From NCBI RefSeq assembly GCF_964204865.1, contig NC_135255.1, positions 15,839,135 through 15,903,134 of the forward strand: a stretch of DNA of 64,000 nt. Direction: 5' to 3'. Each line of letters opens with the position of its first letter. Positions within the stretch are counted from its first letter, which is position 1. A program made the translations under genes and the position numbers. Of the stretch, positions 10,108-58,200 are shown in pieces. Under the pieces are notes generated by a model, which worked only from the letters and a program-made list of their open reading frames with translations, was not told the origin of the DNA and did not search any database. Origin of the DNA: Styela clava (taxonomy: Eukaryota; Chordata; Ascidiacea; Stolidobranchia; Styelidae).

Positions 10108-10284
10108 TTTGATATTTACACGAAACTATACATATTGAAATAAATCTGTAAGTGATTTAGGAAAAATAAATCTTACGTTATAGTACTTGGTACTATATTA
10201 AATAAAATTAGATTTACTTCAAACCTAATCCAGTAATCAGATGCTGAAGTCACAATCTTAAAACAGGATTGGACAGTATTATTA

Positions 10285-14072: not shown

Positions 14073-17000
14073 CAATATGATGCGCAACTCCGGCATTTTT
14101 GGCCGAAGATCGTATTCGATAGCACGCTCCAATGCACATACTTGACGAGACGAAAACGAGCGGATGTGTGTTGCTTTCAAGGCATAGCACGAATGGTGTT
14201 CGAGCCTGCTTCGACAATTGTTGTGGTTTTTAATGATATGTGGAAAATTGAAGGTAAAAAGAAATCGGAAAAAAGTAAGGTAAATACTATTGTTGTATAT
14301 CACACCCGGGCATCGCACTGTTAAGTACATGCGGGAAAGCCAGCTTTTGTCAAATACTACGAAGTTTATAATTCAGTACGATACGTAGTTGGCCATCTGC
14401 CGAAATTGCATATTCACTTACCCCTTATGGTTTCAAATAGTTCATGCACCTCCTTTTAGATTTTTTTAATCAGTGAGGATATATACTTATTGCTGTAACA
14501 TACTATTGCTCATTCACTTTTATTTGCGTATTGAATCAACGGGTTAACAAGTTCACCTAAAATTTCACTCATACCGGTCTATATTGTATAGTCTGATCTC
14601 TCAAGTATTTGGAGCCACGAATGCTTATAATTTTCTGACTAAACCCCTTTATTAGTTGGTTTATATACCAAATTCAGTAAAACATTTTTTACAAAAAACA
14701 TAAGATATTGGGTTTATTAGCTTTTCCATTCTGAATCATATAGACTGCTTTATTTATTCTTAACGAAAATTAATACATCTCCTCTCCTACAGATGTGAAA
14801 GTTGTGGACAGACCTGTCTAAGCATTGTGAGACTCCTGCAGCACAAGAGGCAATAGCAATAATAGTGAGTATATCAATCAAGAAATTAGGCCGACATAAA
14901 ACAAAACTTTCAACTATTCGTCTAACCTCAATTTCCTATTATTTATTCACAGGACAACTGTAGCTGAAGGGGAGATATCAGAAGTCTGGCGACATATCAG
15001 TGACAGTTTGATTCCAAGAAATATGATTAGAATACTCCATAAATGTTTGCAATAGAAGAACAACCTATGGAGGAATGCAAAGACATTTGACCCTCCGGTA
15101 AAGTTGTGTATGGCCCCTACATCCTGCAGGGCTTGAGGGAAATAACTAAAAATTCCAAAGCGTAAGATTGCATAAGCGGTCTTCTTTGTAAAAAGGCACA
15201 AAACATGCCAGACATACTTAAAACAGCTTTGAAAAATGAGGATTACGGTTCACTGACTACACCTGTGTTATATTTGGTTCATCAAATTTTGTTAGTACTA
15301 TAGAAGAAATTCAGGAAAGGGTATAATCATGATTCATGATAAAATAATGTTATATATTTTAGACAACTTCAATCTAGACCAGGGATGTCAAACTCGCGGC
15401 CTCAGAGAACTTCCAGTGCGGCCCTCGAACGCTTAACAATAATTGTAATAGTATTTTGGAATTTTTTTTTATTTAAATGTAAAAGATTTTTCAAACCTTT
15501 TAAAGTGAAATTGAATATTCACACAGAAAACAATTTACTGAAAGTAGTTTTAGAAAGTTAATTTTTTTTGTTCACATTTTGACTCAATTAAGAATACACA
15601 CCAAGCTAGCAAAAGAATACTGAATAAAACACTTGAGTGATTAAATTAAAGTATACGAAGAAGGTGGCATTTTCGAAGAAAATGGGAGTTGCAATATTTC
15701 TGCATTTCACAAAATTCTGAAGCACATTGTTAAATTTGTCATATTTCCATCAGTACAATGAAAAAACACAATAAGCTCAGCAGTCAATATGACAAATTCG
15801 AAGACCAACTCCGAACAGAAAATTTCCATGTGTTTGTATATTAATATAAATATACAACGACTTAGTTACTAAAAATCAATATCAATAATAATTCAAGCAA
15901 TCCTATGCCATGCAATGTAGCGTGAAATGTCTTGTCGAAAAAATCTGTCATTTTTATTTTTACTGATCTATACATGAAATGATAAAAGTAACTTTTTTGC
16001 ATTACTGGAATTAATTAAACTTTTGCAAAGATACAGATTAACCCATGATCATGTGACCTCGTTAGTTAGAGTTGGTACTATAAAATCATTTCAGCCTGGC
16101 CTTAGTATGCTGGTGACACAAAGAAGATGCCAAACGTCAGGACAAATGTAATTAAAAAAAACATTGAGTTTATACTGTAGTATTTTTGTTAATTTTAGGT
16201 TCATATATTTAGATTTTAGTCATTTTTAGTGTATATTTTATTCTTTCCTTAACCAAGGCTTGTTCAAAAATGATTTTGATGGTTGTACATGGAATTTTAT
16301 GATTTTTTGTAATAAATACAGTAACTTGCAATAATAGTGGAATGCAAATATTAATATGTAATTGCATTTGAAATTAAAGAAAATAATAAAACTTAATCCA
16401 ACTGATTAGTTGCATCACAATATATGTCACAAACTAAAACTATCTGAAAAATATCTCTCGAGTATACATTATCAAAACTGTTTGCGGCCCTTTTTACAAT
16501 TTCCAACATGCAATGCAGCTCTCGAAACCCATGAGTTTGACACCACTGATCTATTCTAGACGATTCAAGCATTCCTTTGAGAAATAATATCACTTCAATT
16601 AAATTGAAAAAAAATCTCGCTATATTAAATACAAAACCGTTGCTATCATAAAGGTAAATCAATTCAGCCACTCGGAATATATTGGCCTTCACAAAGCAAT
16701 GGAGGCAGAATTGAGAGTTCATGAGCTATGAACTTTTGTTCTTTTCTTTGTCTTGAACTTTTCATACTCCACAGCCTCTATTAATTTTTTTTTTTAATTT
16801 TAATTACCATGTGATGGTCATACATACTGTATCTTTGTATTTTCTGTCATGATGTATTATCTCAATGTGTCAAACTTTTAATTAGTGTGTATATTTTGCT
16901 TTCAGATGACATGAATGTATTGTCTTGCTTATTACCTCAGCTTGGAGTATTGACAAGAAAAAAGTGCCCGTAAATTACGTAAAAAATGTTTAACTCTTTG

Positions 17001-17877
17001 ATATAATCAGAATTCACATTTAATAGGAATTATAAACAGCCAACAATCAATGAGAATTACGTATATGCAAAATTCCCCAGATTGAATTTGTCTTCTAAAA
17101 TCGGAGGAAGGCAAAACATATAGGTAGTCTCCATTCACACAAGTCTTTCAAGAAGACTTGCTCGAGACAAACTAAATGAGCATCGTCAGGTGATTGGTAA
17201 GTCTGCAAGTTGAATCAGCCCTGCAATCTCCTGCATAGAAGATAATATTAATTAGCGGGCTATGAGCTAAATTCCTAAATTTAGACACAAACCTATCTAC
17301 GAGGCATTATGTACCAGTAATGTTACCTACGATTAACTGAATATGTAATATGTCTAATAAATTCACCTACTAAAACAAGTTCGATAGGTGCAAACTTTGT
17401 GTTATGGAAATGTATCACAGCACCTTTAAGAGAAGTAAAAACAGTTTTGCTGTTTTGTATGACACCCTCTTTAAATGAAATTTCAATGTTTAAGCGCAAA
17501 CATTAAAATTACTAACTTTGAACTTTGTCACTATCTGCAAAATGTTTCACACAAATCTTTACGCTATCGCGTTTGTAATATTCTCTGATAAAAAAAAACG
17601 TCTATGATGTTCAGAATTACTCTTTACAGCTTGTCTGCCATTCCAGCTTTCCAAATGAGCAAAACTTCTCAGATATAGAGATTATTTTCTTTCGTTACAG
17701 GCGCAAAAAGGCAGGTACTACACGTAAAGAAGACGCCGAGTAGCAAAAGCAAGCGGAAAACCGTCGCGAAAGGCGACGAGAAATATGTGCATTGGAGCGT
17801 ATCATGAAATACAATCTTTCGCATGTAGTCTTATGGAGTGACGTCAGAGTTGCCTATCATGTTGTTTAATGTCATTG
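14073..17877 (+). mobile_element. 7-bp-TSD TIR transposon E2, copy 1
   Basis: The target duplication CTCAGAC is at 14066-14072 and 17878-17884. The right end is ATGTTGTTTAATGTCATTG. The left end is the mirror with 13 bases lost (CAAT joined to ATGATGCGCAACTCC). The terminal inverted repeats extend imperfectly ~100 bases, both reaching TGCATTGGAGCG. It is the direct counterpart of 32066-35653 on the other strand. The interior carries exon-like stretches with splice-like borders (14793-14870, 14952-15055, 17701-17800), but all are broken by stops, so no active transposase is claimed. Superfamily unassigned; P or Dada would suit a 7-bp duplication. Confidence 0.82.
15380..16548. mobile_element. 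hAT passenger nested inside E2 copy 1
   Basis: Starts CAGGGATGTCAAACTCGCGG and ends GAGTTTGACACCACTG, a typical hAT inverted pair, with GCGGCC/GGCCGC subterminally. The flanks ATCTAGAC and ATCTATTC agree at 6 of 8 bases, an aged target duplication. The same insertion at the same place occurs in E2 copy 2 (33390-34334). This copy keeps about 225 bases (near 16200-16430) that copy 2 has lost. Confidence 0.8.
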
Positions 17878-32065: not shown

Positions 32066-35000
32066 CAATGACATTAAACAACATGATAGGCAACTCTGAC
32101 GTCACTCCATAAGACTACATGCGAAAGATTGTATTTCATGATACGCTCTAATGCACATATTTCTCGTCGCCTTTCGCGACGGTTTTCCGCTTGCTTTTGC
32201 TACTCGGCGTCTTCTTTACGTGTAGTACCCGCCTTTTTGCGCCTGTAACGAAAGAAAATAATCTCTATATCTGAGAAGTTTTGCTCATTTGGAAAGCAAG
32301 AATGGCAGACAAGCTGTATAGAGTAATTCTGAACATCATAGACGTTTTTTTTTATCAGAGAATATTACAAACGCGATAGCGTAAAGATTTGTGTGAAACA
32401 TTTTGCAGATAATGACAAAGTTCAAAGTTAGTAATTTTAATGTTTGCGCTTGAACATTAAAATTTCTTTTAAAGAGGGTGTCATACAAAACAGCAAAACT
32501 GTTTTTACTTCTCTTAAAGGTGATGTGATACAATTCCATAACAGAAAGTTTGAAACTATCGAACTTGCTTTAGTAGGTGAATTTATTAGACATATTACAT
32601 ATTCAGTTAATCGTAGGTAACATTGCTGGTACATAATGCCTCGTAGATAGGTTTGTGTCTAAATTTAGAAATTTATCTCTTAGCCCGCTAATTAATATTA
32701 TCTTCTATGCAGGAGATTGCAGGGCTGATTCAACTTGCAGCCTTACCGATCACCTGACGATGCTCATTTAGTTTGTCTCGAGCAAGTCTTCTTGAAAAAC
32801 TTGTGTGAATGGAAACTACCTATATGTTTTGCCTTCCTCCGACTTTAGAAGACAAATTTATTTTGAAGGATTTGGCATATAATTCTCATTGATTGTTGGC
32901 TGTTTATAATTCCTATTAAATGTGAATTCTGATTATAACAAAGAGTTAAACATTTTTTTACGTAATCTACGGGCACTTTTTTCTTGTCAATATTCCAAGC
33001 TGAGGTAATAAGCAAGACAATACATTTATGTCATCTGGAAGCAAAATATACACACTAATTAAAAGTTTGACACATTGAGATAATACATCATGACAGAAAA
33101 TACAAAGATACAGTATGTATGACCATCACATGGTAATTAAAATTAAAAAAAAATTAATAGAGGCTGTGAAGTATGAAAAGTTCAAGACAAAGAAAAGAAC
33201 AAAAGTTCATAGCTCATGAACTCTCAATTCTGCCTCCATTGCTTTGTGAAGGCCAATATATTCCGAATGGCTGAATTGGTTTACCTTTATGATAGCAATG
33301 GTTTTGTATTTAATATAGCGAGATTTTTTTTCAATTTAATTGAAGTGATATTATTTCCCAAAGCAATGCTTGAATCGTTTAGAATAGATCAGTGGTGTCA
33401 AACTCATGGGTTTCGAGAGCCGCATTGCATGTTAGAAATTGTAAAAAGGGCCGCAAACAGTTTTTGATAATGTATACTTGAAAGATATTTTTCAGATAGT
33501 TTTAGTTTGTGAACCTAAAATTAACAAAAATACTACAGTATAAACTTAATGATTTTTTTAATTACATTTGTCCTGACGTTTGGCATCTTCTTTGTGTCAC
33601 CAGCATACTAAGGCCAGGCCGAAATGATTTTATAGTACCAACTCTAACTAACGAGGTCACATGATCATGGGTTAATCTGTATCTTTGCAAAAGTTTAATT
33701 AATTCCAGTAATGCAAAAAAGTTACTTTTATCATTTCATGTATAGATCAGTAAAAAAACAAATGGCAGATTTTTTCGACAAGACATTTCGGGCTACATTG
33801 CATGGCGTAGGATTGCTTGAATTATTATTGATATTGATTTTTAGTAACTAAGTCGTTGTATATTTATATTAATATACAAACACATGGTAATTTTCTGTTC
33901 GGAGTTGGTCTTCGAATTTGTCATATTGACTGCTGAGCTTATTGTGTTTTTTCATTGTACTGATGGAAATATGACAAATTTAACAATGTGCTTCAGAATT
34001 TTGTGAAATGCAGAAATATTGCAACTCCCATTTTCTTCGAAAATGCCACCTTCTTCATGTACTTTAATTTAATCACTCAAGTGTTTTATTCAGTATTCTT
34101 TTGCTAGCTTGATGTGTATTCTTAATTGAGTCAAAATGTGAACAAAAAAAAATTAACTTTCTAAAACTACTTTCAGTAAATTGTTTTCTGTGTGAATATT
34201 CAATTTCACTTTAAAAGGTTTGAAAAATCTTTTACATTTAAATAAAAAAAAATTCAAAAATACTATTACAATTATTGTTAAGCGTTCGAGGGCCGCACTG
34301 GAAGTTTTCTGGGGCCGCAAGTTTGACATCCCTGGTCTAGATTGAAGTTGTCCCAAATATATAACATTATTTTATCATGAATCATGATTATACCCTTTCC
34401 TGAATTTCTTCTATAGTACTACCAAAATTTAATGAACCAAATATAACACAGGTGTAGTCAGTGACCCGTAATCCTCATTTTTCAAAGCTGTTTTAAGTAT
34501 GTCTGGCATGTTTTGTGCCTTTTTACAAAAAAGACCGCTTATGCAATCTTACGCTTTAGAATTTTTAGTTATTTCCCTCAAGCCCTGCAGGATGTAAGGG
34601 CCATACACAACTTTACCGGAGGGTCAAATGTCTTTGCATTCCTCTAAAGGTTGTTTTTCTATTGCAAACATTTATGGAGTATTCTAATCATATTTCTTGG
34701 AATCAAACTGTCACTGATATGTCACCAGACTTCTGATATCTCCCCTTCTGCTACAGTTGTCCTGTGAATAAATAATAGGAAATTCAGGTTAGACGAATAG
34801 TTGAAAGTTTTGTTTTATGTCGGCCTAATTTCTTGATTGATATACTTACTATTATTGCTATTGCCTCTTGTGCTGCAGGAGTCTCACAATGCTTAGACAG
34901 GTCTGTCCACAACTTTCACATCTGTAGGAGAGGAGATGTATTAACTTTCGTTAAGAATAAATAAAGCAGTCTATATGATTCAGAATGGAAAAGCTAATAA

Positions 35001-35653
35001 ATCCAATATCTTATGTTTTTTGTAAAAAATGTTTTACTGAATTTGGTATATAAACCAACTAATAAAGGGGTTTGGTCAGAAAATTATAAGCATTCGTGGC
35101 TCCAAATACTTGAGAGATCAGACTATACAATATAGACCGGTATGAGTGAAATTTTAGGTGAACTTGTTAACCCTTTGATTCAATAAGCAAATAAAAGTGA
35201 ATGAGCAATAGTATGTTACAGCAATAACTATATATCCTCACTGATTAAAAAAATCTAACTGAAGGTGCATGAACTATTTGAAACCATAAGGGGTAAGTAA
35301 ATATGCAATTTCGGCAGATGGCCAACTACGTACCGTACTGAATTATAAACTTCGTAGTATTTGACAAAAGCTGGCTTTCCCGCATGTACTTAACAGTGCG
35401 ATGCCCGGGTGTGATATACAACAATAGTATTTACCTTACTTTTTTCCGATTTCTTTCTACTTTCAATTTTCCAAATATCAATAAAAACCACAACAACTGT
35501 CGAAGCAGGCTCGAACACCATTCGTGCTATGCCTTGAAAGCAACACACATCCGCTCGTTTTCGTCTCGTCAAGTATGTGCATTGGAGCGTGCTATCGAAT
35601 ACGATCTTCGGCCAAAAAGCCGGAGTTGCGCATCATGTTGTTTAATGTCATTG
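32066..35653 (-). mobile_element. 7-bp-TSD TIR transposon E2, copy 2 (inverted)
   Basis: Perfect duplication ATTTAAC at 32059-32065 and 35654-35660. Ends are CAATGACATTAAACAACATG and its exact mirror, with imperfect inverted repeats to ~100 bases. Collinear with the reverse complement of 14073-17877 at high identity, including the nested hAT. Relative to copy 1 it keeps intact termini but lacks about 225 bases inside the passenger. Exon-like tracts with splice-like borders persist but contain stops. Confidence 0.87.
33390..34334. mobile_element. hAT passenger nested inside E2 copy 2
   Basis: Ends CAGTGGTGTCAAACTCATGG and AAGTTTGACATCCCTG, at the same internal site as in copy 1. Deletion relative to copy 1 falls where GTTTGTGA meets ACCTAAAATT (about 33505-33515), with TGA microhomology. 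Confidence 0.8.
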
Positions 35654-39555: not shown

Positions 39556-42500
39556 ATGTCAGCAGACCTTGCATCTCTTGTGTCTCGTCTTGAAACCGTC
39601 ACAACTAGATTGGAGAAGGTGGCAATTGGAGGTGGAGGAGCAGGTACTGTTGTATTGAAATGGAAATTTTTGATTTTATATAGTGTGAAACTGTGAATAG
39701 TCAACTTGGTGTTTTCTTTTATTCGGAAAGACTGGTATACTGGTGTAGTTATAGTGATATCACTGACATTAGCCTATCAAAAATAATTTTTAAATATTGT
39801 TTGATTTTAATGATGAATATCTTGGTCTCTTTGTTAATTATACTGATATTCATTCGTCATTAGCTATAGTACCTTTACCATATTTTCTGGCTAATAGGTT
39901 GATTCTGGACTCAATTTTTGGCATGATTTATTTGGATTGGCATATTGAGGGACTCGTCTTATTAGCCAGAAAATGAGACAATTGTAAGAACTGATATAAT
40001 TGAGCATGTATTACTGCTACGCAAGCCTGATTATACATACTATTTACATTGTACAGCTATGGAACAGTTCGTTTTATTATACAACCTATTTTTTTTCTAG
40101 GCGATGCAGGACCTTCATCGGAGATGGTGACTGATTATGGGGACTTTATTGCTCAATATGTGGATGCTTTTATAACAGCTACAAACAAAGTCAATTCTAA
40201 TGATGTAAAGAAGGCTGTGAGTTATAGATATTTTATTTTATAGGATATCTGTGCTAGGCAAAAAAAATTACTTTCAAAATCCTTTTTCTCGCGGCGGTGT
40301 GGCTCATTGTGCTAACCGTTAGGAATACGCTCGCCACCGCACCTCTGATTATTCTGCATGGGTTGCAGATTCGAATCCTGTGCGGGGATGGTTATGTGCG
40401 AGAGGATTGCTGGACTCCCATCCGCCGCAGGGTGGTTCACGTAACCACTGCTCGGTTACTGCTTTCTCCACCATCAAGTCCATGCTTCAGAAAACAAATA
40501 ATCACCAGTAACTAATCTTATACCTGACATGGAATGGTAACTTGACAAGAGGCCGTGGTTCGCCATATGGTTACGCCATCTTATCAACTTTCCTCTCCCC
40601 CGGGATAAATATGTAAAATCCTATCCTCAATGCCAAACTACATGATTTATTAGTCCATAAATATTTATAGCGTCTAAATAGATTTATAGTATAAGTTATG
40701 ATAATAATAGAGTTTGTTTTGCAGTAGATGGTCTTTTGTAACCAAATTCATTATAACCTGTTTTAAATTTTCAGTGTTACTAAGTACTAGTTAACACAGA
40801 TGATCTATTTTCTTCATTGTTTTTTCATGAATTTTTCAGTTATTGTGAAAAACAATGATTCATTGGGTCTCATAAATATATTATTATCAAAGTGTGAAAA
40901 TAGCATTCCGTTAATGAAAATTTTGACATTCATCACTATTCACTCATTCTCTATAGATTTTGACATACAACTAAATTATTCACAACGGTAAAACAAGTTG
41001 AGTTCATTATTCTTAAAACCCAAAAAGTGTGAAACTATTTTATTTATCTTTTATTTTCTTTATTTGTGAACAGGCATCTTTGGTGAAATCCCTTGCTGAA
41101 GAACAGAAGAAGTTTCTTGGAATTGTTGCGCAACATGCAGAACCAACCCAGGTTGTTTTTTATTAAATTTTTCTGTCATTTCTCAGTAATTAATAATTAC
41201 CAAAATATGCAGTTTGACGAGGTCTGACTTTTCGGGAAATTCAGTTTATTCTTAAATGACTGTGACAGAAAAATATATGTCGGATGAAAGGGCATTAAGG
41301 TTTTATGTCCACGCTTATATAAAATGGATATTTCTCAGATCTCACTGTAAAATATTACTCTATATATTGTCTCTTGCACACGAAATGGTAACAGAGTAAT
41401 GTCTCTTAATATGAACTTATTTGGAATCCCACGGGACAGCGTAACGGTTATTTTGTTGAATCACTGGTAATGTATGTAACACATGGTTGTATCATTGTTA
41501 GTGATGCATGTACTGAATTTCAGATGAATGTTGTAATTTGGTTTGAATATTTTTGATGAAATCATTTTATTATGATACTATGGAAAAATGGAATAGGCTA
41601 ATTCATGTTTTACAGATATAATAAGTTGGTAGCTTTTGTCAAGTAATAATTTTGAAATTCATCTTTCATGTGATCTCCAATAATTTTGATTTGAAATTTT
41701 ATTTAGTATGTATATTAGACAATGGATGTTTCTCTGACCCTTGACCCCAGAAAAGTTATCTAAATTTTATTATTACAAAATTTATGATGGTATTACAGAA
41801 ATTGGTCGCTTTAGTCAAGTAATAATTTTGAAACTCTGAATGAATTATGTTCAACATGATCTCCAATATTTTTTATTTAGTGTGCAGAAAAGTCTTCTAA
41901 ATTTTATCCTTACCAAATTTTTCATGACATTCTTCTGAATAGCCAATGTTACAGAAATTAACAAGGAAGCTGATACTCGAAAATATCTATTGTTCTATTC
42001 CAATGGTGCTCCCTTTGTTTTTGAGCACCTTTGAAGTTGGATCGTTTGCACTGAATTTAATTTAATTTACACTGGGCCTGTAACACAACTGTATTTGATA
42101 GAGCAGGGCTACTCAACTTTTTTTTACCAATGATCAACAATCGACATACAAAACTTCAAAATTACTGGGGACCGGTCTTTCCAGAAATTATATTTTGACA
42201 TCTATCGCGCACTCCTTCGGTCGTCTAATGATCATTCACTAATCAAGATAGCACTATTCGTATTATTTATGATGGTGTTGCAGTTCTTTTCATATAATTA
42301 TAGTCAAATAGGAGCAAATAATAAAATAACCTTTAAAACTATAAAAGTCATTTGATAAGAAGGAAACTTTCACATATCCGAAGTTGGGCCAATGATCCAA
42401 GGTGCGGTCCGAATCGTATACTCGAAAGGTCCGGATTCGGACTGCGGTCCACCAGTTGAGTAATCCTGTCATAGAGTATAACCAATATTATTTATTTATT

Positions 42501-45500
42501 AAGGAAGTTATAGCGAAGTTACTTCAACCATCTTCAGACATTATGACTGAAATTGGAAGAATCAAAGATGCCACTTTCAAAGACAGAGAATTTAGTTTCT
42601 ACACAGCCGCTATTAATGAGGGTATGACTGCTTTCGGTTGGGTCATGGTGAAGCCTTTACCTGCTCCTTACGTGAAAGAATGTGGAAATGGAGCTGAGTT
42701 TTATACAAACAGAATATTAAAGTAAGATCTATTTGAAATAATTTTTCCGATTTTGTCTACTTTTTTTAAATTTATGATTTTTTTATTTTATTGAGAACTG
42801 AAATAAGCAAAATTTCTCTTTGCTCAAATACATTTTTAGAAATTTATGATATTATTTTTTTTATTGAGAACAGAAATTTATTGGAATAGATCTTTTTGCT
42901 GATAAGTAAAATTATTTCTTTTGGTCGTATACCTTTTCAAAAATTCATGATATTTTTTTTTTTTGGGAGAAGTAAAAATTTATTTACAATGAATTATTTG
43001 ATGATAAAATAACCAGAATCATGAATTTTTCTTCCCAGGGAGAAACAAGACAAGGATTGGGTTAGCGCGTGGAAGGGTGTGTTTCCAGCACTTCATGATT
43101 ATGTGAAAAAACATCACATTACTGGTCTGAACTGGGATAAAAATGTACGTATTAAACCAACAATATTGAATCAACTTATTCTTTGAGATCTGTTATTTTT
43201 CTCTTCTAATTTTCTTTATTTCTCTTATTTTTTTGCGTTTCCTCAGGCTGGCATCTTTTCCTTGCATACTTCTCGTTCTGCTGAACAAGATGCCAGACCC
43301 CAACCTCCCCCTAAACCTGAATATCTCAAGTCTCAAAATGAGGTCACAAAATCTGTACCCTCTACAACAGTCAAGGAAACGAATGAACCAGAAACATTGC
43401 CTCCACCCCCAATACAGAGCTCTTCCGATGCTGACGTTATACCCCCATTTTTGCCCCCACCACCCCCACCCCTTCCTCCAGTACTATCGAAACCAGAATC
43501 AAGTAATGATTCTAGTGGCCATGGCGCATCTGAAGCTCTTTTCTCTGAAATCAATGCAAAAGGTCTAGGAATAGCCCAGGGTGAGAAAGAATGTAAAATC
43601 TAAGGAATGCACCTAAGCATGTAGTGTTGACTTCTTCCAATTTTACATAATGCATGTGATTTCATGTTTGAAGTTCACAAATATTAGCTTCGCATTTGAA
43701 ACTGTGCAGTTCATGTTGTCATATGAAGCCGTGTTGGGTAAAAGCCCCAAACTTCAGGTCTTGAGGCATGGGTCATAAGAATGCAAAGACGAGTAAATCA
43801 CTGAGTTATCACTGGTGGTTCGTTGAATACATATCTGAATCATTTCATTCAGATCACTCGAGTTGAGTCACTTTGAGTATCTGATGGATGTGGAATTGAG
43901 TCCCATTCATCAGATCACTGGTGGTTCTTTGAGTACATATCTGAATCATTTCATTCAGATCACTCGATTTGAGTCACTTTGAGTATCTGATGAATGTTCA
44001 GGTCTAGTCTGGTCAATGATTTGGGGCGCCCCCATTACTGGTATGATGAAGTAACTGCTTGTACTTAGTTTTAATTGAAATCTAGCTGGTATATAAATCA
44101 CCAGCTGAAAATATTTGCAAAAAGCACCAAACATCTTGACATACCATTTCTCTATTTCTCTTTCTTCATTCTTCTAAATTAAAATTTTTACCGAGGAGGA
44201 ATAAAAACAGGGCAAAAAAAAAATAATTTCATCTAATAGGCATCCATTGCAACACTGGCATCTGCATCATCCGTAGCTTCATGTCCATCAGGGGCTCCAG
44301 CCCCTCCCCCTCCTCCTCCACCGGGACCACCTGCTGCATCTTCAGCTTCTCAAGGCAGTGCACCAGATGTATCCGCTTTACTAAGTGATATTAACCAAGG
44401 ATTATCTGTTACGTCTGGTAAGTTTAATTTCCTCCAACCTGTTTGGGCATACGCATACCTATACGTTTAATAGCAGTTAAGACGTTTTGTGAATATAAAC
44501 AGACAATGACAATAGTTATCTAAAATCACAGATCCACAGAGCCGTATTTTCGGATTTTTAATTCTGAATCCTCATAATCAGGAATAAGAGTTTAATTGTG
44601 GAGTTTAAGAGTGGAATTTAAAACTTTAATAAATGTTGATAAGAAAAGCCAAAATTTTCTACGAAAACTAAAAATGCATTAGGTTTTTTTCAAGTTTGTT
44701 TTTAGGGGTGCCGTACATTTGAACCCATGTGTATATCCGCGGGTTCAATCTATATGCGAGTGCTAAAACCCATGGGTTAGGGTTAGTATGGGTTCAAATA
44801 ACCAGAAAGCAAAAAAATTTCCCATAGGTGCAATAGTATGCGGGTCCAATTGCCGTGGGTTCAAATGTAATGGAACCTGTTTTTAGTAGTCTAAGAAGGC
44901 AGGCATACACCAAAGACCAAATTTTTTATCCAAATTAGATTTTGTATCGACACTATTCAGAATTTTAAAACTGAATCAGTAAGAAGTGTTGTAACAATTT
45001 GTGTAACAAAGTGTTGCCACAATTTCAGTCATTACTATGAAGATGCTCAAAAAGTCAAAAATAGATACCTAATAGAATGCAAATCAATTTTTAATTAAAA
45101 GAGAATAGACTATAACCAGGGCTGCCATCGATATGAACCCCAAAATAAGGACATCAGGGAAACATAATAATAGAATAACAAAGAACGAAATGTAATAAAC
45201 AAAATGTATCCATGCCAGTGCGATTCTTGTCTAATCATACTTTGTACTAGAAAGTATTTGCTCCAGCAGTTGTTTATTCTTAGAAACAATCTGTTCCATC
45301 TTACTTTTAAGTTGTATTTTGATTAAAGTTACACAAATTGATTTTCGCCGGTAAGCTATTGTTTTGTCATTAGGTCGATTAATTTGCCGTTATTACCGTA
45401 AGTAATGAATGCGAGTAGCGATCAATGAGGTTGTGCAATATCATTTCTAGCAAATTAATCATTCAAATTGACCAATCTAAGTGCCTGGTGTTAGAACCTC

Positions 45501-48500
45501 TACCCATAAAATAAGGACACATGTCAAAATAAGGACGTTTCTCAGAAATAAAGACAAAAATATTTTCTAAGACGAAGACCTTCGAAATAATGACAAATCT
45601 TAGAATTAATGACTTTATGGCAATCCTGATATAACTGATAACCAATAAAATTTTTGATCAAACGTAGTCTGCAATCCTATTGATTTGAATTAATATTTTA
45701 TCATTTACAGTTATTACAGATACTGTTAATAAGACAGGAGTTTATTGTTTAATAATTAAAGTGCCTAGTTTTCTATGATATGTGTGCATTGAGTACTTTT
45801 CGTGAACATTTCAGGAATGGTGCGTAAGTTTGTCACCCACTAGCATGTTATTGCATTTTTTATCTCATACGGATACTGTTAGTCTTTGCATATCAGAGCA
45901 ATATAAGGATTACTCAATTTGAAAAATGTGCATGTTTTTTGTGTCCATTGATATACCTATGAAGTGTGAATATTTTAAACTTGAACATGTTAATATAAAA
46001 ATCACTGTTTTTTGTGAGGTAGGGGGGGTAGGCTATATATTGATCTAGTAATATAAAATGATTCCCCTTATCATCAATTTGTTGTTGTCTGTTTATTTGA
46101 CAAAAGCTATAAACAGGACTAATTTTTCAATGTCAATACATAGGCCAAAGTAAAAAAAAATCACATTATTTTTTCTAAATTGCAACTTATTTTAACAATT
46201 TCATGTTGTAACAAAATTCTATCTACAAAGGTTTGAAGAAAGTCACAGATGATATGAAAACCCATAAGAATCCAAAACTACGTCTTCAATCAGCTGTTCC
46301 ATACAAAGCGCCTGCAGCAACCAAACCTAAACCTGTGGCCAAACCTACTGCTGCAGCTCCTAAGAAGACTCCTGTATTGGCGCTGCAAGGCAAAAAATGG
46401 ATTGTGGTATGTTGAACTTCATTTGTAGATTACTAGTAATACTATCTCTATTTGGGCAATTCCAACGTTATTTCATTACATCTGAGAGCAAATATTTAAA
46501 TTTTAAATTGGCCAAACTGAAATTCCATTAATCATAGCGTTTAAATGCCTTTGAGTCTGTAGCACAGACACAATAGTTATAGTATGGTCAAGTCCATGCA
46601 TCTGGAAACTAATAGCTAGCTAACTAATCCCATATCCAACATGGAATGGTAACCGGACAGGAGACCGTGATTTACCATATGATTAGGTCGTCTTATTGGT
46701 TTTCCTTTCTCCTAGGATAAAATAAATCCTATCCTACTTTCACATAGACGAGCTTCAAAACACATTTATTTAGTTGTGTTACGGGAGAAGGACAAGAGTT
46801 TTTTTAGTATAACTTTTAAGGTCGCAAGATATTGTTGCCAACCAACTACATTTTTCATGTCACTGGAGAATATATATTTGACCACATAAAATTAAGTGTA
46901 AAACGTTTATTCAAATTCTTGAACTTACAGCCTGAACTAGAAATGTGCTGTTAGGTACTTATGTCAGGGTCTTACAAGAAGAACAATCAAGAAATATTTA
47001 TTGACAACATTGTTCGTTAATGCAGGATTGAGCACTATTTTTTTCAGTTTTCAGCAGGATTTCCCTGTTTTTTCCTAGTTTCATGAAATATTCTATCTTG
47101 TAAATAAAAATAACAATATTACTATATTACCATACTGATTTTAATCGAGAGAAAGAGATAAACAACTCGAGCTATCACTCAAAACAATAGTCCATTTATT
47201 GCCAACCTAAGGACAGAGGAGATAGGCACCTAATTTATCATGCCCTGAATGAGTCTAATATTTCGACGGCATCGTGTTTAATTTCATTTTGGCCTCCTAT
47301 GGTCCTGACTGATTATATCAGATAGGCTGTCCTTCATCGCTGTACCAGATATTTGTCATTTCCTTTTGTGTGATGTCAGCCCTCTTCCTGTAGCAGAGCG
47401 TGCAGCCTCAAAGATACAATAGACTGGCTCTATGTAACGTTTTTTTTATATAGACATACATTGCCATTTCTGTTATGCATGCAATATATCAGTTCATAGA
47501 GAATTCCTATTTGGCATTCTTTCCTTTTTAAAAATATAATAAAGTACCTTATTGGTTGTTTAAACAATTGCAAATTGAAGACTTACATTGATTATTGTCT
47601 GTGGATATCAATCTGAAGTCAATATCATACTATACAAAAACAAATTCCAAAAAATAATGTTGCCGGTAGAATGAATTAGAAAACCATTTAGAACAATAAC
47701 TTGATATTTATCTAGTGATATAAAAAGCTCAATTCGAAAGATTTGTCTATTTTCAATTCTAAATTTTGGGGGATTTTATTAAAAGTTGAGTCTTTTCGAT
47801 TTGCTATTCTGCGACTCTGCGGGGGGAAATTTTCAGTTAGAATGAAACATTTTTGCCTGACATGAAATACCAGGATGTTGCCTAACTTTAACCTGGTACA
47901 CATACTATGTTCCGGTGTCCGCCATCTTGGTTCACATAATACGGGAGTACCTTATCTAGATATACCAGTAACTGGATTTGTTCAATTTACAATGTATTTT
48001 CATGAAAACTTCAATGAGATTTCAAAAGTTGCCAAAAATAGGCCAAAGCCAAAATGTTCATTATACCGTAAATAAAAACAATATAAAATCATTTTCATGG
48101 CATTTTGATTTTTAGAGCATGCAAGCATCCTTATGCTACTATTGTTGGTTTAAAATGTCCATGTGCTTTCTTATAGAGACAGTTTAATTTCAAAATATGA
48201 TTTTCTAAAATTCCTATTTTAATTTTATCTTGAAAAATAATGTGAGTCTTTTGTCTGAAAGTTATTTATTTAATTAAACTAAACTAAACAGATCAATAGG
48301 AAATTTCCTGTCATGGAAATATGAACTTATACAACCTCGTTGTTGCCACTCAGTCTATGTCTGCTGCATCAGCGACCCAGTATTGATAAGTGAGATGGAT
48401 TGTTTCTAGCTTCTTTATAAAAATTTAATGAAGTTTCAAAAACTTTGGTTGTTCGTTTTGTGAATTGAAAACCCAATTCAGCTTTTAGTTTAGGTTCTCA

Positions 48501-51500
48501 CTAATGCAAAATGCTGTATTGATATTTTTTGGGGGTTTTCGCTCCCAATGACAAAAATCATTAGGTTTATTTGTTTCCACTCTTTTATAGACCCTCCATT
48601 GTTATTATCCACAATTTCTATTTAAATAGAGTTGATATAGTTTAGCACCAATACTTGACACTTTTGCGGTAAACCCAAAAAAAAGAACTCTGACTATTTT
48701 GGGACATATTCTAGAATTTGTGCACAGTGTCCTAGATCAGGGATGTGCGAAGTGCGGCCCGCAATGGAAAATTGTGCGGCCCGCGGAGAAGTGCCAATTT
48801 TGAATGGTGCGCGGCCATCTAAACTAGTTTTGAAATTTAGTTGGATCTGGTTTCCTTTGCGTTGCAAATCTTATATCCGAGTTCAATTTATTATTTATGC
48901 CAATGACTTACAACGTCCTAACAGCGAGGCGAACAACGCGATTCAAAAAGCTGTTCCTTGCTGAGCAGTAAACAATTTAAGAAAAATGCGGAGAATACGC
49001 TAATGAATTTGTAAGAACAGGCAATTGAAGATTAGGCTACTGGAAAGCAGTTTAAAAAAATTTAATATTATATAGATACAAAAGCTAAATGAGTTTTGGT
49101 TCTAGCCTATCAATTGATTTGGTCTAAATCTAATCTAGAATAAGATTTGACAGAAAATTATTTGGAAATGAATCTTACCGAAAACACCAAGATAACTTTC
49201 CACATTTAAAAAAGTCATGACTTCAAATATGGCACTTTCCAGTAACATATTTATTTCATTTATTTTTAAAATGAGCCATTTTGTGCCTGCAACTAATGGA
49301 AAGCCTATGTTAAATGACGGTGCGGCCCGCGGTTTCACTCAGTTATTAATATTTGGCCCGCCCGCGAAAAAGGTTGCACACGCCTGTCCTAGATTACTGG
49401 AACTTTTGGGTACAATTGTACACAAACAGAAGTTCAAGTGAATTAAAGAAGTTTTCTTCATTTTTGTAGTTGATTTGTGGGTTCTTTTTTTATTGTCACT
49501 CTGTATTTGTATAGAACAGGGGTTCCTGACCTTTTTGGTAGAGCATAACCTTTATGAAACATCCCTGTGGCTCAAAGAACCCCAGTGCAACAGTTTATTG
49601 TCTGAATTATATAAACTATAAATATATAAAGGAAAACCGATGCTCCTAAAGTATTCTTACCAAGATGACGCACAACCTGAACATAGTATGTGTATCATGT
49701 AAGGGTTGTTCAGGTTGTGCGTCATCTTGGTACTAATACTTCAGGAGCGCAAGAAAACCTGATACTGGCAATATAAAATGATCTCCAGTATGTAGTAAGT
49801 TTAATAGTTGTGGCAAAGCTAGCGGGTATTTTATCATATTCAAACAATAGGCCTATGCTTATAATAATATAAACTCTCGGTTAGGATTGGAAACTTGCGG
49901 AACCCCGTGGGCCTGGACTGTGCCAGACGAACCCCTGGGTTTAAAGAAACCCCGGTTGTAAACCACTGGCATAGAAAGTATATTCAACATCTAAGATTCA
50001 GGTTTATTGATATTATACCACATTTTTCTTACTCTTAAGGTATTTTTTTTTTCAGGAACACCATGTCGACAGAAAAGATCTTGTGATTGACCAAGCTCTG
50101 ATGAAGCATACTGTGTACATTTACAAATGTGAAAAATGTACCATTCAAATCAAGAACAAAGTGAATCAAATCATATTAGGTTGGTTACTCTAAAGGCCAG
50201 TTGTATTTCACTCTGAACTAATTTCAAAAATCTTTTTTGGTCCTTATTTTTGTATGGTTTAACCAATATACATTTAATGGGGTTTTAATTAAAATTAGTC
50301 CAACATGATTTTAGAATACTGTATATTTGGCTCATTTTATTCTATACTACAATTTGTGTTCTAATTTTAGTTATACTCAGAAAAAGAGTATTTTCCTGAA
50401 TTTGAGCATAGTTTAGGAAACACTGGCATACACACTTCTCTCTATAATCATGTAGGGTTATTATGTGTATAGTTTGCCGTTTTGTTGATCAGTGTCATCA
50501 AATTTTTTTTTTTGAGATATATGGTAAAGTTTAAAATTTGAATATCCCATTATCGTATTCGTAATGTAAAAATTGATAACAATCACCTCAAAAATATATT
50601 AAGTAAAAAAACTGGATTATTTGGGACTATCTAGTACGGACAGTCCGTAACTTCCACATATATATGGCTGCACTAGTAATCATTGTTTGTTTTATCTATT
50701 ACTATTGACTTAAAATGTACGGTAACTACTTTTCTTGGCCTTTGCTCAAGTGGTTTGGATGCTAATAATTATTGGGTGTTTTCGCAAAGATAACTGTTCT
50801 ATTTAACTCAGTTAGTTAGTTAGTATAGTTATGCTGTCACTGTCAGTGTGCAGCAAGACTCTTGAATTAAATCTAATGATTAATTATTATTTTCACCAAT
50901 CAATATGTTATAGAGAAGAGTAGCCAAATTAATGTTATGAATATTTCCAATATGATGAATTTATTTTTAAAGAATCTTAATATTTTTGGTTACAGATGGT
51001 TGCAAGAAGACTGATGTTGTGTTTGACACAATTGTTTCAAGCCTGGAATTTGTCAATTGCCAAAGTGTTAAAGGACAGGTGAAATGATATTTTTTTGCTA
51101 GTTTTTTGCTAGTCGATAAAATGAATATTTTGGGTTCCACTATGCTTTTCATTTTTAAATGTGGAGAGTATCTGATTATTGGATACATAGTGTACATATA
51201 GATTGTCTTGCTAAGTTCTTGTTGGGGTTTATTTTATTGTTCAAAATCGATTCCTCTGGGTACAAAAATGTTGTCGTTTCATTTTAAATAAAAAGGAACA
51301 CTATTATATCCCGTAATTCTCAACTGCCTTCGTATTGTTTGTCTTGCTGGTCTCTTCAGCAAACTCTGTGCTTTCAGGCTTTATTTACTGCACCAATGCC
51401 GATGCATGAACAAGTCAAATTTAAACCCTTTTTTGATTTACAGTAAAGGAATACTTTTTTTAATCGGAATCTGTTATTGATAAAAACTAAGTCAGCAAGA

Positions 51501-52530
51501 CCAAAAACCATTGCGCATTATCATGTCCGGACTCACAAATCTCTTCTTTATTTCAAAATTAAAATTTCATCTTTATTGCTGAGTGATACTGACTATAATT
51601 TACACTTGCTCTCCACATATTTTAACTGTAATTTATGTTGTTAGGTTACTGGAAGCCTTCCCACTTGTTCTATTGAGAAGACCGATGGATGTCTGGTGTA
51701 CTTGAATAAAGATTCTCTTGATTGTCAATTCATTACTGCAAAGTCTTCTGAGATGAATATTTCCATTCCCAAGGGTCAAGACTATGTAAGTCTATTTTTG
51801 AATTTTATGTTTTGCATTATTTTTTTCCACCAGTCTGGCTTTCTTTTGCCGTTAACTAGCACAAATTATCTAATTGATGTCTTACGAGAGATCGCATTTT
51901 GAATAAATAGATATAAATATATCGCTTTCCCCCAAGTTTTATCCCTTAATCCACAGTTTTCCAAAGTGGGGTCGCGACCCTGCAGTGGCACGCTCAAACA
52001 GATTTCGGGCGTCGCAAAGAGTACACCAATTTCACGCAATGTATTCTATTCATTGTACTTTTTAAGCCACAATTATTAAAACTTGTGCAAAACATAAATC
52101 TCACGATTTCAAGAGAATATATAGGATCAGAGGTGCGGTGCGCTTGCATGTATCAAACTGTTTAGCATTGGGGATCGCGGAAAATTTTGATATATATTGG
52201 AAGGGTTCGCAAGCTTAAAAGTTCAGGAAGCCCCGCCTTATCCCATAGAATATCAAAATTCACCTTCCAATTCCTCAAATTGGTTTGTATTTCACAAGGC
52301 TTTTGTGCAAAATCAAAACATCAAATTTTTTTTTTTCTTCCTAAAAGTAGATAGATTGACTGAGTTGGGGAAGTGAAAAATAATTTATCACGACTAATTG
52401 TATTTCCTAAAAAGCTCCACTTGTAGAATCGTATCAATATTTTCAGGTTGAATATCCGATCATAGAACAGTTCAAGACTACTTGGAACGGAACTACATTT
52501 GTTACCGAGCCGAGTGAAAGTGCAGAATAA
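39556..52530 (+). CDS. CAP: adenylyl cyclase-associated protein (CAP), complete
   Basis: Cytosolic actin-turnover protein: its N-terminal half works with cofilin to sever filaments, and its WH2 and C-terminal domains recharge ADP-actin. Exons: 39556-39643, 40101-40216, 41074-41151, 42504-42721, 43039-43144, then 43247-43580 or 44240-44417, 46231-46406, 50056-50179, 50996-51078, 51645-51785, 52447-52530 (TAA). All junctions are GT-AG and in phase. Landmarks: N-terminal coiled helix [16 protein letters not shown], helical-folded domain ([19 protein letters not shown]), proline run, WH2-like [18 protein letters not shown] with DDMKTHKNP, then the CARP beta-helix ([31 protein letters not shown]) and the terminal EQFKTTWNG. 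Length is 463 residues with the short linker exon or 515 with the long one; human CAP1 is 475. Including both linker exons, or neither, breaks the frame. Introns carry at least seven transposon copies. Confidence 0.94.
40290..40627 (+). repeat. tRNA-derived SINE, nearly full length (CAP intron 2)
   Basis: The head GGCGGTGTGGCTCATTGTGC supplies an A-box-like element, and GCAGATTCGAATCCTGTGC supplies a good B box about 60 bases later, as in a pol III promoter. The body runs to CCCCGGGATAAATATG and ends with AAATCCTATCCT, the same (ATCCT)n tail as other copies. 74 bases downstream of exon 2. Confidence 0.85.
42104..42468. mobile_element. hAT MITE directly upstream of CAP exon 4
   Basis: CAGGGCTACTCAACTTTTT is mirrored by AGTTGAGTAATCCTG. 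The flanks TGATAGAG (42096-42103) and TCATAGAG (42469-42476) agree at 7 of 8. 365 bases; its right edge is only 35 bases from the exon 4 start, so it ends inside the region expected to hold the branch point and pyrimidine tract. Confidence 0.83.
43247..43580 (+). CDS. CAP: CAP alternative linker exon 6a (long)
   Basis: Enters at phase 0 ([14 protein letters not shown]) and leaves at phase 1 (final G before GTGAGA). Encodes a charged stretch, PPPPIQ, the proline run [11 protein letters not shown], and the WH2-like start [16 protein letters not shown], which joins LKKVTDDM in the next constitutive exon. It can replace exon 6b exactly but cannot be spliced to it in frame. Longer by 52 residues than 6b, with a Lys/Glu-rich front part absent from the human linker. 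Confidence 0.8.
43808..43995. repeat. tandem duplication, ~106-bp period, between exons 6a and 6b
   Basis: ATCACTGGTGGTTC(G/T)TTGA, then ATATCTGAATCATTTCATTC and GAGTCACTTTGAGTATCTGATG, occurs at 43808 and 43914. Two copies with few differences; a recent local duplication. Confidence 0.8.
44240..44417 (+). CDS. CAP: CAP alternative linker exon 6b (short, ancestral-like)
   Basis: Enters at phase 0 after ATCTAATAG and leaves at phase 1 before GTAAGT. Encodes [14 protein letters not shown], a run of eight prolines, and [16 protein letters not shown]. This is close to the vertebrate CAP linker (SLFAQINQGESIT) in both length and sequence. Gives a 463-residue protein. Confidence 0.85.
44706..44878. 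mobile_element. 173-bp MITE with perfect 8-bp TSD (CAP intron)
   Basis: GTTTTTAG at 44698-44705 and 44879-44886. Ends GGGTGCCGTACATTTGAACC and its imperfect mirror GGTTCAAATGTAATGGAACC are inverted. Noncoding. An 8-bp duplication fits hAT or a related superfamily. Confidence 0.78.
45117..45628. mobile_element. hAT-like MITE (CAGGGCTGCCAT ends)
   Basis: CAGGGCTGCCATCGAT is mirrored by CTTTATGGCAATCCTG. Subterminal AAAATAAGGACA occurs at both sides (45150; 45510 and 45523). Flanks share TATAAC but not an exact 8-bp duplication. Confidence 0.65.
46590..46736 (+). repeat. SINE 3' portion (CAP intron 7)
   Basis: Contains AGTCCATGCATCTGGAAACTAA, CCAACATGGAATGGTAACCG, a degraded CCATATGATTAGG-type block, TTTCTCCTAGGATAAAATAAATCC and the ATCCTATCCT tail. 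A 5'-truncated copy of the family at 40290-40627. Confidence 0.7.
47878..47960 (-). repeat. R3-family short element
   Basis: Has AACCTGGTACACATACTATG, TCCGCCATCTTGGTTCACAT and GGGAGTACCTTA, equivalent to the left edge of the window and to the loop units at 19115-19250. Confidence 0.6.
48738..49386. mobile_element. hAT element with perfect 8-bp TSD (CAP intron)
   Basis: TCCTAGAT at 48730-48737 and 49387-49394. Ends CAGGGATGTGCGAAGTGCGG and AAAAAGGTTGCACACGCCTG are inverted, with GCGGCCCGC subterminal on both sides. 649 bases with no transposase domain. A truncated relative is at 1213-1335 and another end fragment probably at 24430-24500. Confidence 0.88.
49517..49968. mobile_element. hAT element carrying a nested R3 palindrome
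   Basis: CAGGGGTTCCTGACCTTTTT is mirrored by CCGGTTGTAAACCACTG. GTATAGAA (49509-49516) and GCATAGAA (49969-49976) match at 7 of 8. Internal segment about 49645-49752 is a hairpin (CCAAGATGACGCACAACCTG against CAGGTTGTGCGTCATCTTGG) of the R3 family, inserted later. Confidence 0.82.
50180..50995. other. CAP intron with TTAGTGTGCAGCA-family fragment
   Basis: AT-rich intron. Near 50845-50875 CAGTGTGCAGCAAGACTCTTGAATTAA matches the terminal block of the MITEs at 2553 and 4366 (longest exact stretch GTGTGCAGCAAGAC). Nothing else recognised. Confidence 0.45.
51954..52237. mobile_element. hAT MITE in last CAP intron
   Basis: Left end CAGTTTTCCAAAGTGGGGTC followed by GCGACC; right end GGGTTCGCAAGCTTAAAAGT then TCAGGAAGCCC. 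Flanks TTAATCCA and TTATCCCA agree at 7 of 8. The internal GTGCAAAACATAAATCTCACGATTT also occurs at 57790-57815 inside the PAICS intron, so the two are relatives. Confidence 0.7.
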
Positions 52531-55279: not shown

Positions 55280-58200
55280 TCATTCTTGTTGCATCTCCCT
55301 TCTCATTTCCATATCAGCTTTTTTCAATTTGAGCCAATTAGAGAAGAGCTGGACTCGTAATTTTGACCAGACAACAACATCATGTTGGGCAAGAATTTGT
55401 GCTGCAGCTTGGGCAGCCATTTCTGGATCTATAATAGTTGCACAGCCAAGACCTTAAAAATTAGAAAAAATTTTTTACATCACATATAAATTGACAGTAA
55501 GTATCTTGAATTATAAGAATGGGGAAATAAACGAATAATGCACAAATGAGTCCAAAACAGACTTTTTGTAAAACACCCAGTTCGATCTGTGAAAATCCAT
55601 GTGGCATTGGAATTTCTTTGAAGTTTGCAAAATTTGAAAAATAACAACGATGTAAAAAATGTAACCGCTTTCCAAGAGACACTTTCATGTTTAGCTATCG
55701 ACAATAATGAAATCATTTTGTCAAATAAAAACCTTATTATAAATACTTTGGTTGCTTTTTAAAATGGTATAGTTCATCCTTATCCAATACACATATGCTC
55801 TGATATATGTCTACAGAAAGCGCAACTTACCTGACGGCAGTCTGAGTGACGACCAAATATCAGAAGTTGCCCACTGAGCAGATACCGGAGGACAATTAAT
55901 AACAGGCAAACAACTGTTTCCTGCCATGACTGGACCTAACCCATTGCTGCGTCCAGCAACAGCTATAATCACAGTTGGAATGTGTAACGATTCTCCCTCT
56001 AATTTTGACAATATTTTCAAGGTCTCCTCAGTGCCCTTGTGTGCTGAAGTCACTCGCAGAATGCATTTCACAGCTAACTTATCACAAGTGTTTCGAATCT
56101 TCTCACAGTGGCTTTTGTCAGATGCTGAACCCATTAACACAACAACTTGACCTAAACATATATAAGAAACATGATAGATTAAAATTCATTCAGTCGCTAA
56201 TAGAATAAGACAACGTACAAAATTGTACATTTTCGACATTTCTCAGCTCATAAACAAAAATTGCCTCGGTAATATAATATGCCTGTTATACATAAAATAA
56301 AGATCGGGACCTCCTGAAGTATGCGCACCAAGATGACGCATAACCTGAACTCAGGTTGTGTACCAGGTTAGGGTTGGTCCAAAAATTGTTTTTCTCGCAA
56401 CCCAGTAGATCTGTACAATTAAGTGGTCAAACTCTTGGAGTCCTTATATTAAACAATAAACAACTTGATTCCAAATTCACGACAAGTACAATAAAAACAA
56501 AAACATCAAGATCAGGGGTCACCTATTTGATATGTCTAGATTGAAGGAAGGACATACATTTTACTGTTTACACCCGTAACTTGTGATGAAATTGAATTAT
56601 AGCCACCTAATGTGGCCAACGTGGCACTATCGCCGAACGATCTGAAGATGTTAATACAACTTAATAGGTTTGTGGCAAATCGAGGGTTTTAGTTAGTTAG
56701 CGAGCGTCAAGCATGCTACATCTTGCAATTTATTTTTTTGTTTTAGTGTAGCAGTAATGTTTAGGTTAATAAAAGTCCTGAAAACGATATAAATGAGTTT
56801 CCCTCAAATGGTTTCACTATACAACTATTTCCAAATCAAAGCTATTTGATATGAGAAATTTCAAGTAACTATCATTAGAAACAAAAGTTTTTTTTGAACT
56901 ATAGAAAATTAAACGTAATAAGTTCTACACCAGGCCTGCACAACTCGAATTACCACGAGGACCGTAAGCATAAATCTGAAAGCCAGGCGGGTCACATCCA
57001 TATTTCACAAGATGAACTACAAATCAAAATAATTTTGTGAAACAGTTAAATTTAATGAAACACTTTCATTACTGGGGAGCTTAAAAATATGAAGAATCTT
57101 ATTTACTTGATTAAAAACAAGGTACAGTATTTTTGCATATGAGATGGCAAATATGTATTTAGTGGCTCATCTACCTTGGAAACCCACCCTTCATTTTCAA
57201 TATTTCTTTTTTATTAGAATTAGGTATTGCGTGTTGCAGTATAAACTGACTGCAAAAAAACATTTTACTCAGGTTCAGTTTTGTAAAATCGTCCCAAATA
57301 TCTGTATGACAATTTATTTAGTCATATCTACCATTATTGGATATTTCCATTGTAGGCTAGACAAACAATCCATTTAGTAGCAATAGAACTTCCTCTGTTG
57401 TACTTTTTTGACAGTTAAATTACATTTTTCTACAAAATCTGCTCTAATTTATTTGAAATTTGACAGTAAATAGTAATATCTTTTGTGCAAGAATTTCTGC
57501 ATTGTTCATAAATGAAGGAATTGTTTTTTAAGTTCTAAATTTGAATCAAAAAAGATACTTCAGTTTCATAACAACTAGTAAAAAGTAATGGGGTTATTAA
57601 TAGGTTGCTGATATGCACTAATGGATGTGAGATTGTATACCAATATTGTTTTAAGCGTGATTCAGTCTGAATACTGAGATATCTGAATCAGGGTTTCCCA
57701 AACTAGGGGGCGAGGGGTCAAGAGATGAATTTTAGGGGTCGCGAAGGGCACATCAGTTTTACACAAAGTTCGATATTTACTGAAACTGGTGCAAAACATA
57801 AATCTCACGATTTTGAATATGATCGGAGTAGCGCCGCGCCTGCATAACAATGCCTGCTTTGATTGTTAGACCCGAGAAGTGACGTGTTTCCAAATCACGG
57901 TATCACGGAAGTATCTAGCGGGCCGTATGTTGTGCAGGCCTGTTCTACACAATTACGATAACATACGTTAATTGTTAATTTTATCTAATTTGATTTACCA
58001 AAAAAAGTGGACATAATCATTGTAAATTTAAACACACATGTATCTATTATCGCCACTTGACACAAATAGATTAGGGTCAAGGATTAGAAAGTGTGTCAAC
58101 AGGATACTCTAAGAATGAGGCATGTTACCTGTTTATCAAATCTATCATGTGACTGAAGTAGACTGGTGAGGGATGCAGGATGAAATAAAATAAATTTTCG

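Follow-up and report, generated by a model that had tools for sequence, protein, structure and literature searches.

CAP (cyclase-associated protein) reloads actin monomers with ATP and probably passes them on to profilin, a hand-off placed at the WH2 motif and the adjacent proline run. In the 64-kb stretch of DNA analysed here (the window), the CAP gene contains two neighbouring exons, which we will refer to as 6a and 6b, and each of them encodes a proline run and the first half of the CAP WH2 motif. The question this raises is whether the two are alternatives to one another and, if so, what keeps them apart and what their exchange does to the protein. A sequence-only reading of the locus had proposed a tandem-duplicated pair that swaps the linker of CAP, its mutually exclusive use being enforced by intron phase. 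We propose that 6a and 6b are likely to be an old tandem duplicate used one at a time, such that two CAP proteins are made from one gene, notwithstanding several features that fit this arrangement poorly.

The CAP gene and its surroundings

The gene model rebuilt from the window gives a complete CAP gene at 39556-52530 on the + strand, in which all 11 donors are GT and all 11 acceptors are AG.

39556-39643, 40101-40216, 41074-41151, 42504-42721 and 43039-43144, + strand: exons 1-5, N-terminal motif and helical folded domain (Pfam CAP_N-CM, CAP_N)
43247-43580, + strand: exon 6a, 334 nt, entered in phase 0 and left in phase 1; its long linker contains PQPPPK, LPPPP twice, a P6 run and a WH2 start
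43581-44239, + strand: intron between 6a and 6b, 659 nt, too long for steric exclusion
44240-44417, + strand: exon 6b, 178 nt, entered in phase 0 and left in phase 1; its short linker contains a P7 run, no Lys/Arg and a WH2 start
46231-46406, + strand: exon 7, constant WH2 half and second proline/lysine-rich block
50056-50179, 50996-51078, 51645-51785 and 52447-52530, + strand: exons 8-11, CARP domain and stop codon (Pfam CAP_C)

Exon 5 ends in phase 0, and 6a and 6b both exit in phase 1. The coding exons common to both forms sum to 1214 nt; adding 6a brings the coding sequence to 1548 nt (515 aa) and adding 6b brings it to 1392 nt (463 aa), in each case with the frame open throughout, and CAP_N-CM, CAP_N and CAP_C score above the Pfam cut-offs in both isoforms. 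The two exons, their coordinates and phases and the length sums put forward by the sequence-only reading are all reproduced in this model.

This gene is the only CAP_C locus found in the 377 Mb tunicate genome (376.6 Mb in 379 contigs searched). Exon 6a and exon 6b have one match each, and a CAP_C profile search returns 35 matches, three of which are exons of this CAP gene. The other 32 (up to E 5.5e-8; four at locus L006, three at L014 and one at each of L015-L039) were all inspected, and each lies in a 19- or 38-residue periodic repeat frame. Because of this periodicity, and because tblastn of both CAP isoforms against the 27 repeat loci gives nothing at E 1e-3, we regard these matches as profile false positives. 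The CAP_C family search of the genome thus found neither a second CAP nor a retrocopy of the C-terminal domain, and viral contigs searched for relatives gave no match. The 19-residue (57-nt) tandem-repeat frames, with a unit like SPSNHTVHIDKCSKLAILG, occur on many contigs (L006, positions 715-2358; L014-L039), and repeats of this type exceed the cut-offs of the Pfam profiles CAP_C and TBCC by a wide margin while showing no similarity to the CAP described here. That the genome points to a tunicate follows from a locus (L012, 6733-9674, + strand) on the 23.8-Mb contig C9, where a cellulose synthase-like frame is followed about 2 kb downstream, on the same strand, by a GH6 exon; cellulose synthase orthologues are present in all sequenced tunicate genomes and absent from the other animals examined, according to PMC6523144. 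A search for mitochondrial COX1, made to place the animal, had no match.

Several other elements are seen in the window. A Rictor gene at 5626-10125 (- strand) carries RICTOR_N, RICTOR_M, RasGEF_N_2 and RICTOR_V in one 1499-codon frame and is apparently intronless, reflecting either a retrogene or intron loss. An inverted duplication of about 3.6-3.8 kb (14096-17877 and 32066-35618) has its arms 14 kb apart and 96-99% complementary in pieces. A dispersed repeat that looks SINE-like is present in copies at 40295-40617, 10482-10811 and 46621-46721, which are 81-85% or 76% alike, two of them in CAP introns 2 and 7. Within the intron between 6a and 6b there is an 84-nt direct repeat (43808-43891 and 43914-43997, 95% identical), and downstream of CAP lies an AIR carboxylase (PurE/PAICS-like) exon at 55811-56185 (- strand).

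Coding character and probable kinship of exons 6a and 6b

Both 6a and 6b read as coding. A codon score trained on the single-frame Rictor gene of the same window against CAP introns gives in-frame values of 13.4 for 6a and 16.3 for 6b, as compared with maxima of 7.4 and 7.9 among random intron stretches of the respective lengths (5000 each); none of the 5000 stretches of 6a length is open, and 102 of the 5000 of 6b length are. The score is noisy, the constitutive exon 8 giving -4.97 in its true frame, and when only synonymous choice is counted both exons are slightly negative (6a -0.056, 6b -0.016), although for each of them the true frame outranks the other two.

The splice sites of both exons are intact. 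Scored with general donor weights, the donors of 6a (5.22) and 6b (6.87) are the top two of the 11 in the CAP gene. A small model built on the nine constitutive CAP acceptors gives 6.68 for the 6a acceptor and 2.51 for that of 6b, the latter being third-lowest of 11; against 520 decoy AGs in CAP introns, they stand at the 99.6th and 93.8th percentiles respectively. The 6b acceptor is odd in that its pyrimidine tract is situated 78-93 nt upstream, unusually distant, with AGs in between. It is also directly preceded by stop codons.

44232-44239, + strand: TCTAATAG, two in-frame stops (TAA TAG) adjoining the 6b acceptor

As these stops abut the acceptor, no upstream extension of 6b is open in the 6b frame, and a scan starting at 43700 finds no open acceptor upstream of 44240. 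A third copy of the exon was not found by motif. Scanning for AG...GT stretches of at least 90 nt that are open from phase 0 to phase 1 gives no candidates in introns 5-6a and 6a-6b and two in intron 6b-7, both of which were rejected, as they overlap one another and contain neither proline nor a WH2 pattern.

Similarity between the two exons is evident both in the peptides and upstream of them. The 6a and 6b peptides share 22 identities over 58 aligned columns, an alignment score matched by none of 500 shuffles, or by 15 of 2000 when the proline run is left out. The pattern A[LF][LFMI]x[DEQA][ILMV]N, sought in six frames of the window, occurs only in 6a and 6b. The upstream likeness lies in a short pyrimidine tract.

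43211-43226, + strand: pyrimidine tract upstream of 6a, 15 of 16 positions identical to the tract upstream of 6b
44147-44162, + strand: the corresponding tract ahead of exon 6b, at a distance of 78-93 nt

A match of this quality is reached in none of 200 shuffles, the stretch having been spotted first and tested afterwards. From the peptide similarity, the shared tract, the identical phases and the same order of elements, we favour an old tandem duplication as the probable origin of the pair, as had been proposed from the sequence-only reading; these features support that origin rather than prove it, what is seen being similarity. The two exons differ in length by 52 aa (111 and 59 whole codons). 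As a stand-in for a homology score, a local BLOSUM62 alignment gives 0.26 of the 6b self-score and 0.135 of that of 6a, and a global alignment gives 0.12 and 0.06, to be set beside the score of at least 15% used as the homology criterion for exclusive exons.

What the proposed exchange would alter in CAP

Both exons encode a proline run (PP1) and then the start of the WH2 motif, as was claimed for them earlier, and the exchange would be limited to these parts: LKKV and the second proline block (PP2) are constant in exon 7. The earlier proposal of a linker swap would apply to PP1 and the N-terminal half of WH2 and would not extend to PP2 or LKKV.

The two forms are not equally close to known CAP. 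CAP with 6b aligns with the CAP1 chain PDB 9q7o_W in one piece through the whole linker (353 bits), whereas the alignment of CAP with 6a is broken into two pieces (315 bits), its WH2 being longer by one residue between the helix and LKKV. With Pfam WH2, 6b scores 16.1 bits, and although this is below the cut-off of 23.1 its alignment to the CAP1 WH2 is clear; 6a gives no match at E up to 1. The linkers differ in their candidate ligand motifs as well, with PQPPPK (an SH3 class II pattern, present once), LPPPP (twice) and eight Lys/Arg in 6a, and a plain run of seven prolines with no Lys/Arg in 6b.

Three clusters in mouse CAP1 help to place these differences. The R253A/L256A/I260A mutant, the deletion of 266-ITHA-269 and the replacement of 270-LKHV-273 by alanines are each entered as '-' for ATP-actin binding in the portion of PMC5951797 consulted. 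By alignment, the R253/L256/I260 and ITHA clusters fall in exon 6 and the LKHV cluster in exon 7, so that the exchange would rewrite two actin contacts and keep the third. The same portion of that paper assigns PP1 to profilin and PP2 to SH3 proteins, and a review gives mouse profilin as able to bind both PP1 and PP2 (excerpts of PMC7543520). The two CAPs would be alike in their oligomerisation, helical-folded, PP2 and CARP regions, the differences being confined to the PP1 linker and the N-terminal half of WH2. Of the two, the one with 6b would be the canonical, CAP1-like protein, and the one with 6a would have a lengthened linker, additional candidate ligand motifs and a further residue after the WH2 helix and before LKKV. 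Judging from these motifs, it is probable that the 6a form differs in ATP-actin hand-off and in partner binding.

Proposed use of one exon at a time: frame, alternatives and known systems

In the arrangement we propose, each transcript would carry a single linker exon, 6a or 6b, spliced between exon 5 and exon 7. At the exon boundaries listed above, either exon alone keeps the frame while both or neither breaks it, as the sequence-only reading had it: with 6a and 6b together (1726 nt) the frame first closes at 44386, within 6b and 553 nt ahead of the last junction, and with both skipped (1214 nt) it first closes at 46234, within exon 7 and 518 nt ahead of that junction. As these stops lie more than 500 nt before the last junction, the products of double inclusion and double skipping would probably be removed as nonsense mRNA. 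The claim that intron phase enforces exclusivity is correct to the extent that a double join at these sites is non-productive, but phase cannot prevent the joining of 6a to 6b. The intron between them, at 659 nt, is long enough to rule out steric exclusion. An incompatibility of U2 and U12 sites was considered and rejected, as the donors gtacgt, gtgaga and gtaagt do not resemble the U12 consensus.

Nor is the frame rule without exceptions, since a sequence scan finds twelve other sites through which 6a and 6b can be joined in frame. Seven open phase-1 acceptors are present inside 6b (44277, 44292, 44301, 44346, 44355, 44367 and 44400) and five phase-0 donors inside 6a (43343, 43355, 43370, 43436 and 43481). 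It is thus conceivable, although we consider it distinctly unlikely, that 6a behaves as a cassette exon and is spliced onto a 6b cut short at its start (or is itself spliced from an inner 6a donor), giving a third protein, mostly with two WH2 helices in a row. When 44292, 44346, 44355 and 44400 are joined in silico to 6a, each product is open to the normal stop, and the predicted fusions carry 42, 24, 21 or 6 more residues than 6a respectively, the first three with two WH2 helices. The best-scoring of the seven acceptors defines the following candidate.

44355-44417, + strand: candidate shortened 6b, 63 nt, in frame with 6a

The inner acceptors score 0.72 (44355), -0.10 (44400), -0.41 (44292), -5.0, -5.47, -6.9 and -10.04, the value of -5.47 being that of 44346, which follows a long C/T-rich run. 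The first three exceed the acceptor of the real exon 7 (-1.75), and the inner donor 43343 (-0.70) exceeds that of the real exon 3 (-1.29), the other four being at or below -4.37. However, all seven inner acceptors are weaker than the full 6b acceptor, and an in-frame fusion of 6a to 6b appears unlikely on these scores.

It is also unlikely that one of the two exons, 6a or 6b, is used in practically every transcript and the other survives as a relic, or is rarely spliced and functionless. The weak 6b acceptor with its distant pyrimidine tract and the lack of a Pfam WH2 match for 6a would fit such a history, but both frames are open and coding-like with donors and acceptors intact, and the relic of so diverged a duplication should have decayed. 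A very improbable reading is that the two are not duplicates at all, unrelated sequence having been exonised and come to resemble a WH2 start, or 6a being of other origin. The low identity, the 52-aa length difference and the 15 of 2000 shuffles that score as high outside the prolines would be accounted for in this way; against it are the same entry and exit phases, the proline run then WH2 half in both exons, the same boundary before LKKV and the shared pyrimidine tract. The peptide similarity and that tract fit a duplicate, and mutually exclusive use, as originally suggested, is in our view the best reading of two similar, phase-matched exons, although it is drawn from the DNA sequence and in-frame joins are possible. 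Counted against use of 6a and 6b one at a time are the length gap, the third-lowest rank of the 6b acceptor and the in-frame joins. The CAP linker is expected to be disordered. Human exclusive exons are mostly in structured regions (excerpts of PMC5740500), which also counts against a pair in the linker.

A more speculative possibility, to which we give a low probability, is that the pair is switched by RNA structure, with 43287-43296 pairing either with the start of 6a or with its copy at 44255.

43248-43257, + strand: hairpin arm CTGGCATCTT, start of 6a
43287-43296, + strand: opposite arm AAGATGCCAG, within 6a; 44255-44263 is a possible second partner
44255-44263, + strand: CTGGCATCT, within 6b; the 6a arm again, here read in a different frame

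The start of 6a is predicted to form a perfect 10-bp hairpin (-21.9 kcal/mol, z -4.55, none of 200 shuffles as good), the stem of which extends over the G of the acceptor AG. Within the 64-kb window, CTGGCATCT is present on the + strand only at 43248 and 44255 and its complement only at 43288; a further 9-base complement is in exon 4, at 42565. As the word is in different frames in 6a and 6b, protein similarity does not explain its presence in both, and as it is copied in 6b with its complement only in 6a, one arm could pair with either exon. In one state 43287-43296 would pair with the 6a start and close the 6a acceptor in a stem; in the other it would pair with the 44255 arm, freeing 6a and masking the start of 6b. 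Such a two-state exonic switch would have been created by duplicating one hairpin arm along with the exon. Among 2000 shuffle pairs, 14% have some shared four-base 9-mer, 0.6% have a 10-bp hairpin and 0.8% have this same arm in 6b. The hairpin with a third arm arises by chance in 1 of 1000 shuffles of 43145-44417 and in 3 of 1000 of 43145-46230, these tests having been framed post hoc, after the pattern was noticed, and the same pattern is present at one other locus in the window (2583-2626 with 4364-4377). Folds at the 6b donor (z -1.94), 6b acceptor (0.33) and 6a donor (1.69) are without support. Intron-intron duplexes were rejected, as crude shuffles equalled or beat them in 8 of 10 cases (intron 5 with 6a-6b), 10 of 10 (intron 5 with 6b-7) and 3 of 10 (6a-6b with 6b-7). 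If the switch is real, one actin-recycling protein in a tunicate could alternate between two actin- and partner-binding linkers.

Among the matches listed in the open-licence PMC literature, in the portions available, no exclusive exon pair in CAP is described; the main text of a CAP review (PMC7543520) contains no words that start with splic- or exon, and no CAP text was found in the body of PMC6226504. Alternative splicing of a CAP gene as such is reported, in excerpts of PMC10379218, for shrimp CAP1 under heat stress, but there it is exon skipping and not an exclusive pair. The tunicate locus resembles the frame-incompatible exclusive pairs in the available parts of PMC5740500 and of the WebScipio study (PMC3228551) in that adjacent internal coding exons have the same phases and some similarity and break the frame when included jointly, and it is probably a new instance of them. 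Such frame-breaking pairs are common: in excerpts of PMC5740500, joining the exons breaks the frame in 377 of 629 human exclusive clusters, and joining reads occur in 83 of those 377. Splice-site type and reading frame agree with those expected of exclusive exons (GT-AG, phase 0 in and 1 out), and joint inclusion leads to a premature stop at the full sites, which the twelve other sites would avoid. Unlike those pairs, 6a and 6b differ in length by 52 aa, lie in a proline-rich linker and are predicted from the DNA sequence; the difference exceeds the length limit of 20 aa in the searches (PMC3228551 and PMC5740500, parts of each), which is a search criterion and not a definition. The possible RNA switch resembles the docking and selector switches of the Dscam exon 6 type, for which a model in excerpts of PMC6071210 has one duplicated hairpin arm provide two selectors for one docking site; the likeness is that one arm could pair with a copy in either exon, whereas the CAP arms are exonic, 9-10 bp and predicted.

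The tunicate CAP has its domains in common with vertebrate CAP1/CAP2 and with Srv2, and its 6b linker and WH2 are like those of the CAP1 chain 9q7o_W. Vertebrates, however, have two CAPs that differ in expression (excerpts of PMC7543520), whereas in the tunicate one gene apparently carries two linkers. If this is correct, what vertebrates vary through two genes the tunicate would vary, in the WH2/PP1 segment, by splicing one gene, and the locus would be a natural experiment on the contributions of the WH2 helix and the PP1 linker.
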